46,099 nucleotides of DNA, taken from contig NZ_JAUWAV010000035.1 of NCBI RefSeq assembly GCF_030605225.1, positions 1 through 46,099 on the forward strand, in the 5' to 3' direction. Under the pieces are notes generated by a model. It did no database searches. It had not been told where the DNA came from and saw only the letters and a list, made by a program, of their open reading frames with translations. Source of the DNA: Geoalkalibacter sp. GTDB taxonomy: Bacteria > Desulfobacterota > Desulfuromonadia > Desulfuromonadales > Geoalkalibacteraceae. This document shows, piece by piece, positions 42,184 to 45,577 of the stretch (position 1 is its first letter; each line of letters begins with the position of its first letter). The translations under genes and the position numbers were made by a program.

Positions 42184-42551
42184 CCTGTAAGGAATACTCT
42201 GTCGCGCCGAGGCTATGGATGCTCTGGTTGGCATCATCAGGACAAAGGGCTTTCCCGCGCAGAGAAGCAAACTTTTGAAAAAGTTAATGCGAGATGTGTG
42301 CCAGCGATGGAAATTCACCAATCTTGCCTGCGATGTCTTTTTATTTAATAATTTCAATGCCATGCATCGTAAACGGAAGATGAACAGAGGGGGCATCGGT
42401 GCTTCTTGCGGCCAAAAAACCGACAATATTTGCCCTTGCCCGCCGTAGCGCTTTGCGCTAATGTCGCAATTGTTGGATGGAATTTTTTTGTGTGCAGTGC
42501 TGAACAAAGAGGGCAGGCATGATCATCAAAGTCATGGCCGTTGAATAAATC
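42184..42551. other. Gap between the HD-GYP gene and the integron
   Basis: About 370 bp. If the HD-GYP protein starts further upstream it partly belongs to that gene. Otherwise it is lower in GC content than the left-hand genes and contains no convincing gene or repeat. The integron begins after it, with the intI terminator. Confidence 0.35.
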
Positions 42552-42592
42552 AAAAAAGCCGCCGCGGACGGGAACGTCCGTGGGCGGCTTTT
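42552..42592 (-). terminator. Intrinsic terminator of the integrase gene
   Basis: AAAAGCCGCC and GGCGGCTTTT pair at the ends of a GC-rich stem with an inner GGACG/CGTCC pair. On the minus strand it is followed by a T run, 20 nt after the integrase stop. Called for intI; it also insulates the HD-GYP gene. Confidence 0.85.
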
Positions 42593-42611
42593 GTCGTTTT
42601 GCGGAAATGTC

Positions 42612-43841
42612 TCAACGATCCAGCGGACTGATGGCCCCCAGGGAGTTTTTTTCCGCGACGTGCGTGTAAATCATCGTCGTGCGCAAGTCGGCATGCCCGA
42701 GCAGATCCTGAATCGTGCGAATGTCGGTGCCGCCTTCTAACAGATGGGTGGCAAAGGAATGACGCAAGGTGTGAATCGTGGCCGGTTTGGCAATGGCCGC
42801 GGAGCGAATCGCATCGCGAAAAGCCCGCTGCAAAAGACTCGGATGTTGGTGATGGCGGCGAATGATCCCGCTGCGCGGGTCGGTTGAAAGACCGCGTGCC
42901 GGAAAGACCCAGAACCATCCCCACTCCTTGCCGGCATTGACGTATTTTCGTTCCAGCGCCTTGGGAAGAAAAACCCCGTTCATGCCCTGGTTTCGGTCGC
43001 TGTCGAACAGGGCGCGCACCTCCCGCAAATGAGCCGCCAACTCATCACGAAGGCGGGCGGGAAAAACCGTGCGGCGATCTTTGTCACCCTTGCCCGAGCG
43101 CACAATGACCAGGCCTCTTTCCATGTCGAGATCCTTGACCCTGAGATTGAGGCATTCGTTTAATCGCAGACCGCAGCCGTAGGTCAGCATGGCCATCAGC
43201 AGAGGCGTTCCCTCCATGGCCGCAAAAACCTGCTGGATCTCTCTGGAAGACAGGACGACGGGCAGGCGTCGCCGCTTTTGTGCCCGAACCGCGTCGATTG
43301 CTTCGTCGGTATCAAGGCCGAGCACATGTCGAAAGAGAAAGAGAATGGCATTCAATGCCTGATTTTGGGTCGAGGACGAAACCTCACGCTCCACGGCCAG
43401 ATAAGACAAAAAGCGGCGCATATCGTCAAAGCAAATCTCCCGGGGCGACCTAGCCCCAAGGAAACGCTGGAATTGGCGAATCCAGGAGAGGTAGGATTTT
43501 TCCGTATTGAGCGCCAGCTGCTTGACGCGCAGGACATCGCGCGTTTGCTCAAGGATCTGGTCCCAAGCGTTGCAGTCGGCCAACAAGGGAAGCGGCGCCG
43601 ATTTCGTGGTCAGGAAAAAATCAAAGCGCCTGAGAGCCTGTTCCGCCTGCTTGATCTGCCAATCTTCGCGGGATGCTTCCAGGTGAGATAAGTACAGCTT
43701 AATTTGTTCGAGTGACAGTCGTTCGGCAGGGGGGATGCGAAAGAATCTGTAACAATCCCGCACCCAGCGAATAAGATAGGGAACATGCTTTGGATTCAAT
43801 GACTTATCGGCGTCAAGCGCCTGCTGGAAATCGCTCAACAT
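42612..43841 (-). CDS. intI: Integron integrase IntI with N-terminal extension
   Basis: 409 aa tyrosine recombinase. Catalytic residues are in place: Arg226 (YGCGLRLNE), Lys in SGKGDKDR near 251, His357 and Arg360 ([12 protein letters not shown]), His383 and Tyr392 ([14 protein letters not shown]). Residues ~296-335 ([20 protein letters not shown], then [13 protein letters not shown]) are the insertion found only in integron integrases, needed for binding folded attC. The part homologous to the ~337-aa IntI1 starts near residue 93; the first ~92 residues are extra and look like a second SAM-like core-binding module. Start ATG 43841 has GGAGGGG upstream. All motifs are intact, so the enzyme is probably active. 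Confidence 0.93.
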
Positions 43842-43881
43842 AATACCCCTCCGTACTTATGTCGCATGCAATATAAGTGCA

Positions 43882-43891
43882 CCGCATGCGG
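43882..43891. promoter_or_regulatory. Palindrome upstream of intI
   Basis: CCGCATGCGG is a perfect 10-bp palindrome 41 bp in front of the intI start, with a second GCATGC at 43864-43869. ATGTCGCAT occurs at 43859-43867 and again at 43998-44006. It could be an operator in the intI promoter. No canonical LexA box was recognised. Confidence 0.35.
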
Positions 43892-43957
43892 AATATGATT
43901 GCAAAATAAATGTTACCGTGGGGAATTTTGCTACAAATTGGGGTATATTCCAACACG

Positions 43958-44021
43958 TTTTTTGGAAGACATCGCACTTTTTTGGAAAAAAGCTGCATGT
44001 CGCATAATTAAATGGTTCTCA
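43958..44021 (+). other. Candidate attI with direct repeats and core site
   Basis: TTTTTTGGAA occurs twice in direct orientation, 43958-43967 and 43978-43987, 20 bp apart, each preceded by CAC(G). This spacing of about two helical turns resembles the accessory integrase-binding direct repeats (DR1/DR2) of attI1. The presumed recombination core is GTTCTCA at 44015-44021: only three GTT triplets exist between intI and the first attC, and this one alone is the exact reverse complement of the TGAGAAC R'' box of the first attC. The core deviates from GTTRRRY, so the call is provisional. Confidence 0.55.
43981..44008 (+). promoter_or_regulatory. Candidate cassette promoter (Pc)
   Basis: TTTGGA (43981-43986) and CATAAT (44003-44008) are 16 bp apart, pointing into the cassettes, and would begin transcription close to the core site. 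TATATT at 43944-43949 is another possible -10 but lacks a -35. Weak matches only. Confidence 0.3.
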
Positions 44022-44158
44022 ATCAAAAAAATGATCAAAAGGCAATAGAGGCAAAAGCAATAGAAGCAAAGAAACAAAGCAAAATTTCAGAAAAGCATCA
44101 AGGCATCAATCTGGTAATGGGAAATCAAAAAGGCAATCAGGGCAATCAAGGGCATTGA
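44012..44158 (+). CDS. Possible 48-codon ORF spanning the attI/cassette 0 junction
   Basis: ATG 44012-44014 sits immediately before the core G, so the start codon belongs to the integron platform while the coding sequence is in the cassette. The frame stays open over a low-complexity Lys/Gln/Asn/Gly-rich stretch (starts MVLNQKNDQKAIEAKAIEAK, later NQKGNQGNQGH) and stops at TGA 44156-44158, which is the first three bases of the attC R'' box. There is no good Shine-Dalgarno. In class 1 integrons a small frame in attI1 helps to start translation of cassettes, so a similar device is conceivable. It could also be a chance frame over purine-rich DNA. Confidence 0.3.
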   Translation: MVLNQKNDQKAIEAKAIEAKKQSKISEKHQGINLVMGNQKGNQGNQGH

Positions 44159-44258
44159 GAACCAATCAGCCGAGCGGACGGAGGGCCGGCAGTGCTTCCC
44201 GCAAGGGGCGCTACTGGGTTGGCCCGCACTGCGCCGCCGCTCGCTTCGAGCGTTAGCA
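44156..44258 (+). repeat. attC site of cassette 0 (103 bp)
   Basis: R'' TGAGAAC (44156-44162); L'' GCCGAGCGGACGG (~44169-44181) pairs with L' CCGCCGCTCG (~44235-44244) leaving one unpaired A; R' GTTAGCA (44252-44258). It is the GC-richest of the three sites. The R'' box is off-consensus, so recombination of this cassette may be poor. Confidence 0.65.
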
Positions 44259-44275
44259 ATACAGGAAAATTATTT

Positions 44276-44659
44276 ATGAGCATAAGGAAACTTAAAAGGC
44301 TCAAAGAGAAAAATACAGACATAGGCAAAATGATCCAAGCCATTGGGAACGATTTAATAATGCTTGGAGAAACTGAAGAGAAACGACAGAATTATTTACA
44401 AACTGTCTGTATCGCCTGGAACATCTCATGCCTTCCCGAACCAACCAGAGAAGAAAAAATCAAAAAATTCGTCTATGATTTCCAAGTCATGAATCAGTGC
44501 AGCGAGGAAAATACTCGCAACTTCGAACATTCGGTCAGGTTGATAATTGAAGAAAAATTGAGACTTTACCCAAATGTACATATTCAAATCTTAGAATCCT
44601 CTCTGGAAGAAATTGGTGGCAAAGATAGAATTAAAATATTGTCTAAAAAAATCAAATAA
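44276..44659 (+). CDS. Cassette 1 orphan protein
   Basis: 127 aa, not recognised. Mostly helical and highly charged (MSIRKLKRLKEKNTDIGKMI at the start, then a possible hydrophobic core LQTVCIAWNIS), ending KIKILSKK-like in a basic tail (RIKILSKKIK). No membrane segment or catalytic motif is visible. ATG 44276 is chosen because AGGA lies 9 nt upstream, just inside the cassette after the attC core; the frame is open further upstream but runs into attC. AT-rich codon use differs from the chromosomal genes. The stop lies 1 nt before the next attC, tight packing typical of cassettes. Confidence 0.75.
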   Translation: MSIRKLKRLKEKNTDIGKMIQAIGNDLIMLGETEEKRQNYLQTVCIAWNISCLPEPTREEKIKKFVYDFQVMNQCSEENTRNFEHSVRLIIEEKLRLYPNVHIQILESSLEEIGGKDRIKILSKKIK

Positions 44660-44660
44660 T

Positions 44661-44763
44661 TGCTAACAATGCGCTGAGCCGGATGGTTGACTCATCTAAG
44701 GTTCACGAAAAATGTCTACTAGATTCAGCGGCACTACGCCACCGGCTAGCTTGATCGTTAAAT
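44661..44763 (+). repeat. attC site of cassette 1 (103 bp)
   Basis: R'' TGCTAAC (44661-44667), the exact reverse complement of the 5' core GTTAGCA of the same cassette; L'' GCTGAGCCGG (44672-44681) pairs with CCGGCTAGC (44742-44750) with one unpaired base on the left arm; R' GTTAAAT (44757-44763) fits GTTRRRY. The central part is poorly paired, as is usual for attC. Confidence 0.88.
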
Positions 44764-44780
44764 GGCAAAAGGAGAATTCA

Positions 44781-45470
44781 ATGACTCTTGAACAAGTGCA
44801 AGAGATTCTCACCGGCAATGGCTACATGGTTGATGAAATTAAAGCGATTGGATACGGACAACAAATTAAATTCACAAACGGCGCGTCAGTAAATGTTTAT
44901 GACTCTGGAAAGGTTGTCGTCGGCGGAAAAGACCAAGAGCGGGTAAAAACCCTGCTCGGATTAAACCCAGGAGGCAAACCTGTCACAGCGACGCAAAGTG
45001 GGATTGTCAGGGGTAACAATAAAGTCTTTGTTGTTTATGGGCACGATGAGCAAGCCAGGACTCAATTGGAGGCAATGCTTCGCCGTTGGGGGATGGAACC
45101 CCTTATTCTTGACCAACTTCCTTCGGAAGGCCAGACAATAATTGAAAAGCTTGAGGCATATACGGCTGAAGTCCAGTTTGCAGTTGTTCTCGCGACGCCA
45201 GATGATAAAGGGCATAGGGCAAAGCACCCAGATGAGTCTGCATATAGAGCGCGTCAGAATGTTGTGCTTGAGCTTGGCATGTTGTTGTCAAAGTTAGGCA
45301 GAAAAAGGGTCGCAATTGTATTGAAACAGCAAGAGAACATGGAGAGGCCATCTGATATTCAAGGCCTCATATACATACCGTTCAAAGAAGATCTTGCGAA
45401 AGAAGCTGGTCTTATCTTGGCGAAAGAAATGTGTGCTCAAGGTTACAACATCGATGTTGCAAGAATATAA
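44781..45470 (+). CDS. Cassette 2: TIR-like (PF10137-type) protein with TBP-like N-terminal module
   Basis: 229 aa. Residues 81-~215 form the TIR-like domain of CAP12/Pycsar-type effectors: VFVVYGHDE (82-90), TIIEKLE (119-125), LATPDD (137-142), RARQNVVLELG (156-166, with the likely catalytic Glu) and PSDIQG (190-195). Such domains cleave NAD+ or bind cyclic nucleotides in anti-phage systems. Residues 1-60 are a compact alpha/beta unit with QQIKFTNGASVNVYDSGKVV, reminiscent of the TBP-like DUF3378 domain of RNase HIII; a nucleic-acid or ligand sensor is inferred. AAAAGGAG lies 7 nt before ATG 44781; the longer frame from 44712 starts inside attC and is rejected. It is alone in its cassette, with no cyclase gene beside it. 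Confidence 0.85.
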   Translation: MTLEQVQEILTGNGYMVDEIKAIGYGQQIKFTNGASVNVYDSGKVVVGGKDQERVKTLLGLNPGGKPVTATQSGIVRGNNKVFVVYGHDEQARTQLEAMLRRWGMEPLILDQLPSEGQTIIEKLEAYTAEVQFAVVLATPDDKGHRAKHPDESAYRARQNVVLELGMLLSKLGRKRVAIVLKQQENMERPSDIQGLIYIPFKEDLAKEAGLILAKEMCAQGYNIDVARI

Positions 45471-45475
45471 CCGCC

Positions 45476-45577
45476 ATTTAACAAACGTGTCAACCGGACT
45501 GCTCAACACTCTACGTGACCGAAAATCGTCTACATGATTCACCTGCCTACCGCAGCCGGTTACCCTTAACGTTAGCA
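45476..45577 (+). repeat. attC site of cassette 2 (102 bp)
   Basis: R'' ATTTAAC (45476-45482), the exact reverse complement of the cassette's 5' core GTTAAAT; L'' AACCGGACTGC (45492-45502) pairs with L' GCAGCCGGTT (45552-45561) with one unpaired base; R' GTTAGCA (45571-45577). It starts 5 nt after the TIR gene ends. Confidence 0.88.

Follow-up and report, generated by a model that had tools for sequence, protein, structure and literature searches.

The ATG at the attI crossover of a Geoalkalibacter chromosomal integron and the frame that it opens into a gene-less first cassette

The contig NZ_JAUWAV010000035.1 of Geoalkalibacter sp. was analysed over its whole length of 46,099 nucleotides (hereafter the window). 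A chromosomal integron begins at its far end, with the attI region and the cassettes located on the plus strand next to the intI gene. An ATG lies directly before the attI core, and a frame of 48 codons leads from it through the first cassette (cassette 0) to a TGA. The explanation that we favour, with a probability of about 0.6, is that this integron is an ordinary one: the spacer of its attI terminates in a conserved ATG that is probably kept as integrase-site DNA, its first cassette is gene-less and the frame within this cassette is incidental. The proposed explanation can be detailed as follows. The ATG would close the spacer that separates the conserved left arm GTCGCATAAT from the GTT core in attI, and would probably be retained as integrase-site DNA, i.e. 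for recombination. Cassette 0 would carry no gene and consist of an A-rich, repetitive body of 140 bp followed by its attC. The 48-codon frame would then result from the small number of stops in this frame of the body, together with an R'' box that mirrors the core GTTCTCA and would thereby provide the TGA.

The integron and the boundaries of its cassettes

An integron-type integrase, an attI at which the cassettes of relatives differ and attC sites with complementary R'' and R' boxes are all found in this region (Table 1). The borders of the cassettes were drawn by a rule that uses no outside model: the preceding G and the first bases of a cassette are the reverse complement of its own R'', and each core is chained to an R''. 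This symmetry is exact in three cassettes (GTTCTCA/TGAGAAC at 44015 and 44156, GTTAGCA/TGCTAAC at 44252 and 44661, GTTAAAT/ATTTAAC at 44757 and 45476); for cassette 3, the matching R'' is absent before the contig end. A base-by-base check thus confirmed the layout proposed in the earlier note, namely a first cassette of 237 bp, an ATG just outside the recombination point and a TGA that is the first triplet of R''. The complementarity between the 5' end of a cassette and its R'' often exceeds the 7-bp core, as at least two extra bases are found in 10 of 23 cassettes (window 44016-45490 and other loci) versus 5.7% with swapped partners; in the locus L097, 8 extra bases beyond the 7-bp core are complementary.

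The bottom strands of the circular attC forms of cassettes 0, 1 and 2 give fold z-scores of -2.4, -2.8 and -3.1 against simple shuffles, and R'' pairs with R' in these folds. For the integrated forms, the fold excess is weak or nil (z of -1.0, -0.6 and -1.5 against simple shuffles), and z is -0.34 when the integrated attC of cassette 0 is compared with dinucleotide shuffles.

The ORF of cassette 1 has no match among Pfam and NCBIfam families. The product of cassette 2 carries a TIR domain like those of CBASS/Pycsar effectors, and its sequence points to a possible anti-phage defence gene carried in a cassette. Another recombinase sequence, truncated by the edge of the contig, is found at positions 62-214 of the window: this C-terminal portion of a tyrosine recombinase shares 65% identity with residues 348-398 of IntI and looks XerD-like.

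Table 1. Coordinates of the integron features in the window
Feature	Positions	Strand	Evidence
intI, integron integrase, 409 aa	42612-43841	-	TIGR02249, 411 bits (cut-off 265); Pfam Phage_integrase and Phage_int_SAM_4
attI region, from intI start to G of core	43842-44015	+	Aligned with same-genus G001 at 84% identity, up to just beyond ATGGTT
Conserved left arm GTCGCATAAT of attI core site	43999-44008	+	Found in all nine aligned attI sites (fixed by the search pattern, except one K position)
ATG abutting the core	44012-44014	+	8/9 lineage attI sites; 6/7 when the pattern leaves these bases free
Core GTTCTCA	44015-44021	+	Mirrored exactly by R'' at 44156; crossover placed between 44015 and 44016
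Cassette 0 (237 bp), gene-less under the 210-bp rule	44016-44252	+	Core/R'' symmetry; ORF list
48-codon frame, attI ATG to R'' TGA, probably incidental	44012-44158	+	No family, no homologue
GGCAAT-like repeats	44037-44154 (44037-44070 and 44128-44154)	+	
attC of cassette 0	44156-44258	+	R'' TGAGAAC 44156-44162, R' GTTAGCA 44252-44258
Cassette 1	44253-44757	+	Core/R'' symmetry; ORF 44276-44659
Cassette 2, TIR-domain protein, likely start 44782, end 45470	44758-45571	+	Core/R'' symmetry; PF10137, E 5e-37
Cassette 3, beginning only, cut at contig end	45572-46099	+	ORF, ATG 45608, end 45970

The ATG in attI sites of the genus, the order and distant relatives

A genome of the same genus, G001, encodes an IntI that is 92% identical to that of the window and carries a different first cassette. 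The two attI regions are identical in 163 of 193 aligned columns, and the good match stops just past ATGGTT; beyond this point, G001 harbors another cassette with its own GGAGG and ATG. Since the match ends there and the cassettes that follow are different, the attI crossover is placed at this position, and the ATG belongs to attI and lies directly outside the crossover. The motif ATGTCGCAT is present twice in the attI region of the window, first in a palindrome-like stretch beside the intI start (43859-43867) and again within the left arm of attI (43997-44005); in G001, the stretch beside intI forms a near-perfect inverted repeat. The two copies may possibly be a shared binding site.

In 134 genomes of the order, a pattern that fixed the left arm and GTTRNNY and left free the six bases between them gave 15 matches, versus 4 for the reversed control. 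Seven of the 15 have attI-like DNA upstream, and six of these end in ATG, the last one (G029) ending in ATA. The eight others, which have neither an attI-like flank nor an IntI and were set aside, include none ending in ATG. The attI sites of the window and of G000:C49 are missed by this pattern, as their cores do not fit GTTRNNY. Once both are included, eight of the nine aligned attI sites of the order carry the ATG, all nine having been recovered by a pattern that contains ATG with one mismatch allowed (seven of them also by the free-base pattern) and three of them coming from one genome; G000:C49 resembles the lineage in its left arm and in the flank on the far side of intI, but not over its whole attI. 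In this alignment, the left arm is nearly invariant, the A and the T of the ATG are found in 9/9 sites and its G in 8/9, while positions -6 to -4 vary (T/C, A/T and A/G). By these counts, the ATG beside the core does look non-random in the attI sites of the order. Its conservation beside attI in relatives was the test named in the earlier note, and within the order it is indeed kept next to first cassettes that differ.

This ATG is part of a wider conserved block and is also found beside lost or broken integrase genes. The genome of the window contains two more attI sites that lack an integrase gene, L122 (G000:C7, 355-373, minus strand) and L127 (G000:C49, 617-635, minus strand). At about 50 and 80 bp, respectively, from these attI sites is DNA with 77% identity to window 42493-42600 (the flank beyond intI), as if intI had been deleted beside them. 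In three other loci, L120, L124 and L125 (from G029, G121 and G131), the integrase gene is broken or reduced to fragments and attI has been kept; the sole lineage attI devoid of the ATG, that of G029, adjoins such a broken gene. A pattern scan of viral contigs retrieved 46 stretches, none attI-like and one with a weak IntI-like stretch, which were taken as chance matches, and a distant blastn search with window 43842-44260 found no match in plasmids.

The integron of the window is related to chromosomal integrons with an IntI of about 410 aa found in MAGs named Nitrospirae, Deltaproteobacteria, Planctomycetes and others: their IntI are homologous, their core is similarly distant from intI and they have attC arrays. 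They differ from it by an attI that mostly reads AAT|GTT and by an upstream promoter-like pair unseen in the window's lineage. Two class searches (55 and 23 genomes) gained only three new loci. The 56 distinct loci with an IntI N-terminus and enough flank comprise 23 with an attI validated by attC and 33 without a validated attI in the set range of 142-182 nt from intI, a range that forced, in L037, a poorer site than that at 237 nt. Thirteen of the 23 validated sites read AAT|GTT, three ATG|GTT (the window, G001 and G006) and seven neither, and the hypothesis that the ATG is universal in attI was rejected on these counts. The sequence AAT|GTT also yields an ATG, one base further on, whose G is the G of the core; two registers are thus seen for the crossover ATG that many attI sites of the wider group possess. 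The claim that the start codon is supplied by attI and the stop codon by attC is correct for the position of both triplets in the window. In distant relatives, the ATG is either shifted by one base or missing. A different register or the absence of the ATG is what is expected if DNA recognition, and not a reading frame, is kept.

Translation from the attI ATG

A start codon in attI combined with a stop provided by the cassette is already known from ORF-11/ORF-18 of class 1 integrons (PMC8876359). ORF-11 has a Shine-Dalgarno sequence 8 bp before its ATG and 11 codons, usually stops at a TAG inside the core and was shown to be translated (PMC8876359). The frame of the window is similar to these ORFs of attI1 in that it starts in attI, is read across the crossover and ends at a stop supplied by the cassette, making the leader dependent on the first cassette. 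Unlike in ORF-11, the ATG touches the core, lacks a Shine-Dalgarno sequence and sets a register that enters the cassette, the stop being located 141 bp further on in R''; the frame is known here from sequence alone. No description of this combination (an ATG touching the core, no Shine-Dalgarno sequence and a register entering the cassette) was found in the titles and abstract openings retrieved from the open-licence literature.

The attI ATG could be a working start codon, from which a short leader would be translated whose length and stop would be set by the first cassette. Cassettes in frame with it would gain an N-terminal extension, the others would be helped by translational coupling, as for ORF-11 of class 1, and cassette 0 would give a 48-aa peptide. 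We consider this unlikely, although several data point in this direction. The constancy of the ATG next to three variable bases, which is an argument against its retention as integrase-site DNA, would also be explained by a start codon. Furthermore, both ATG registers miss the TAG within the common core GTTAG, which is read in the third register, i.e. the one used by ORF-11. A promoter-like pair, TTGAC(A/C/T)-17-TAnnnT, ending 31-35 nt before the core, was the best one found in 16 of 21 distant relatives (three of the 21, L012, L029 and L093, being without attC validation); the shuffle fraction is at most 0.035 for 12 of these 16 pairs, and not for those of L011, L017, L019 and L097. Given this predicted promoter, the crossover AUG of the distant relatives would be located about 26 nt from the transcript start. 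The first cassette of G121 has no evident Shine-Dalgarno sequence and an ATG overlapping the stop codon at which the attI frame ends.

However, none of the nine aligned sites has a Shine-Dalgarno sequence just before the attI ATG, and none of the nine sites of the window's lineage has a promoter-like pair with a shuffle fraction below 0.05. An own ATG, picked by hand, exists in each of the eight other first cassettes from the lineage and is preceded in five cases by a strong Shine-Dalgarno sequence. In addition, the U and the G of the AUG are engaged in a predicted 11-bp RNA helix with the R'' region, in a predicted fold that is overall no better than those of shuffles (z of 0.16).

The relationship between the attI frame and the own start of the first cassettes was examined with the two remaining frames of each cassette as controls. 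In 7 of 14 cassettes, the attI frame shares the phase of this start or overlaps it at its end, versus 6 of 28 control frames (one-sided Fisher p = 0.064); the 14 are what is left of the 23 validated sites after exclusion of seven without ATG and two (the window and L017) without an own ATG passing the rule. When the own ATGs of the first cassettes were picked by hand, in a set that overlaps that of the 14 cassettes, the counts were 5/7 versus 5/14 (p = 0.14) for the lineage and 9/17 versus 9/34 (p = 0.061) for the whole hand set. These counts lean to translation, and as such against the ATG being kept as integrase-site DNA, but the link is only suggestive and not significant, and the sets overlap. 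The idea of a translation trap for start-less cassettes, put forward in the earlier note, is not supported by these results, with no Shine-Dalgarno sequence, own ATGs in all eight other first cassettes of the lineage, a frame within chance in cassette 0, an ATG shifted or missing in distant relatives and a test that falls short of significance.

A broader proposal is that attI is, in a large group of environmental integrons, a site of both translation and transcription. The crossover itself would carry an AUG (read as AT|G in most of the distant relatives and as ATG|G in the lineage of the window), in registers that bypass the TAG of the core. Captured cassettes would be read from a fixed start, which would add an N-terminal tag to those in frame and provide a coupled leader otherwise, and start-less cassettes would be expressed only in first position. 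This proposal appears rather doubtful. If the attI ATG were used, the position of insertion would set the reading frame and the N-terminus of a cassette in addition to the strength of its transcription, small start-less cassettes would gain a route of expression and the principle of ORF-11 would extend from class 1 to environmental integrons.

The first cassette and its frame

The body of cassette 0 (44016-44155) is purine-rich (97 of 140 bases) and contains GGCAAT-like repeats with periods of 9 and 15, in agreement with its first description. This description also held that the cassette has a single frame, which is right for frames starting with ATG and wrong for stop-free runs, as another plus frame without ATG is open over a longer stretch of about 74 codons. 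The ATG-started frame (ATG GTT CTC AAT...) ends with the TGA at 44156-44158. Of 20,000 dinucleotide shuffles made from the body, 32.5% leave this frame open, and arriving at R'' in phase has a further chance of about 1 in 3. Compared with the 6,755 shuffles that stayed open in a second run, its codon-position asymmetry has a p of 0.028. This asymmetry is a weak sign against an incidental frame next to an integrase site, and in-phase repeats alone could produce it. As for the stop, R'' starts with TGA because it mirrors the unusual core GTTCTCA (TTCTCA); a special role of the stop in R'' was therefore rejected in favor of a consequence of core symmetry.

The 48-aa product has no match in Pfam or NCBIfam, nor in plasmids or phages by tblastn. 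The DNA of cassette 0 has no second copy within its own genome and, among the 134 genomes of the order, gives one short match each, of at most 36 bp, in seven others. The hypothesis that the frame is a conserved gene was rejected, on account of the absence of any family or homologue in these searches and of its chance openness (0.325). The frame thus looks accidental, and we infer that it is not translated to any purpose.

According to PMC11014356, a gene-less cassette has no ORF of at least 210 bp starting with ATG, GTG or TTG, and most of the gene-less cassettes of Vibrio superintegrons in its set have promoter activity, which is reported not to be predictable in silico. By this definition, cassette 0 is gene-less, its longest body ORF being the one of 48 aa that depends on the attI ATG. 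It shares with those Vibrio cassettes an attC and the lack of any ORF of at least 210 bp; it differs from them by its size (237 bp versus 491-666 bp in PMC11014356), by its first position in the array and by the lack of any promoter-like pair found. Cassette 0 might accordingly be a regulatory, promoter-bearing or RNA cassette and not a coding one, a view that is compatible with the explanation favored here and says more on the role of the body. The absence of any ORF of at least 210 bp inside the cassette is consistent with it, but no promoter-like pair was detected in cassette 0 (one found over 43700-44800 versus 2.1 expected) and the window has no Rfam match. As in silico prediction fails according to PMC11014356, the empty scan leaves a promoter possible; such a role is nevertheless quite unlikely.

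Cassette 0 is highly unlikely to be a genuine start-less gene, whose 47-codon peptide would be expressed only beside this attI ATG: the frame spans precisely the body between core and R'', its AIEAK and GNQ repeats are in phase and its codon-position asymmetry was mentioned above, but its openness is within chance, its low-complexity product has no homologue in any of the searches listed and no Shine-Dalgarno sequence precedes it.

Returning to the explanation by a conserved integrase site and a gene-less cassette, if the attI ATG is unused, the symmetry between core and R'' is by itself able to create start-to-stop frames that seem designed. A 155-aa frame that opens with a GTG in the attC of cassette 0 is the gene of cassette 1.
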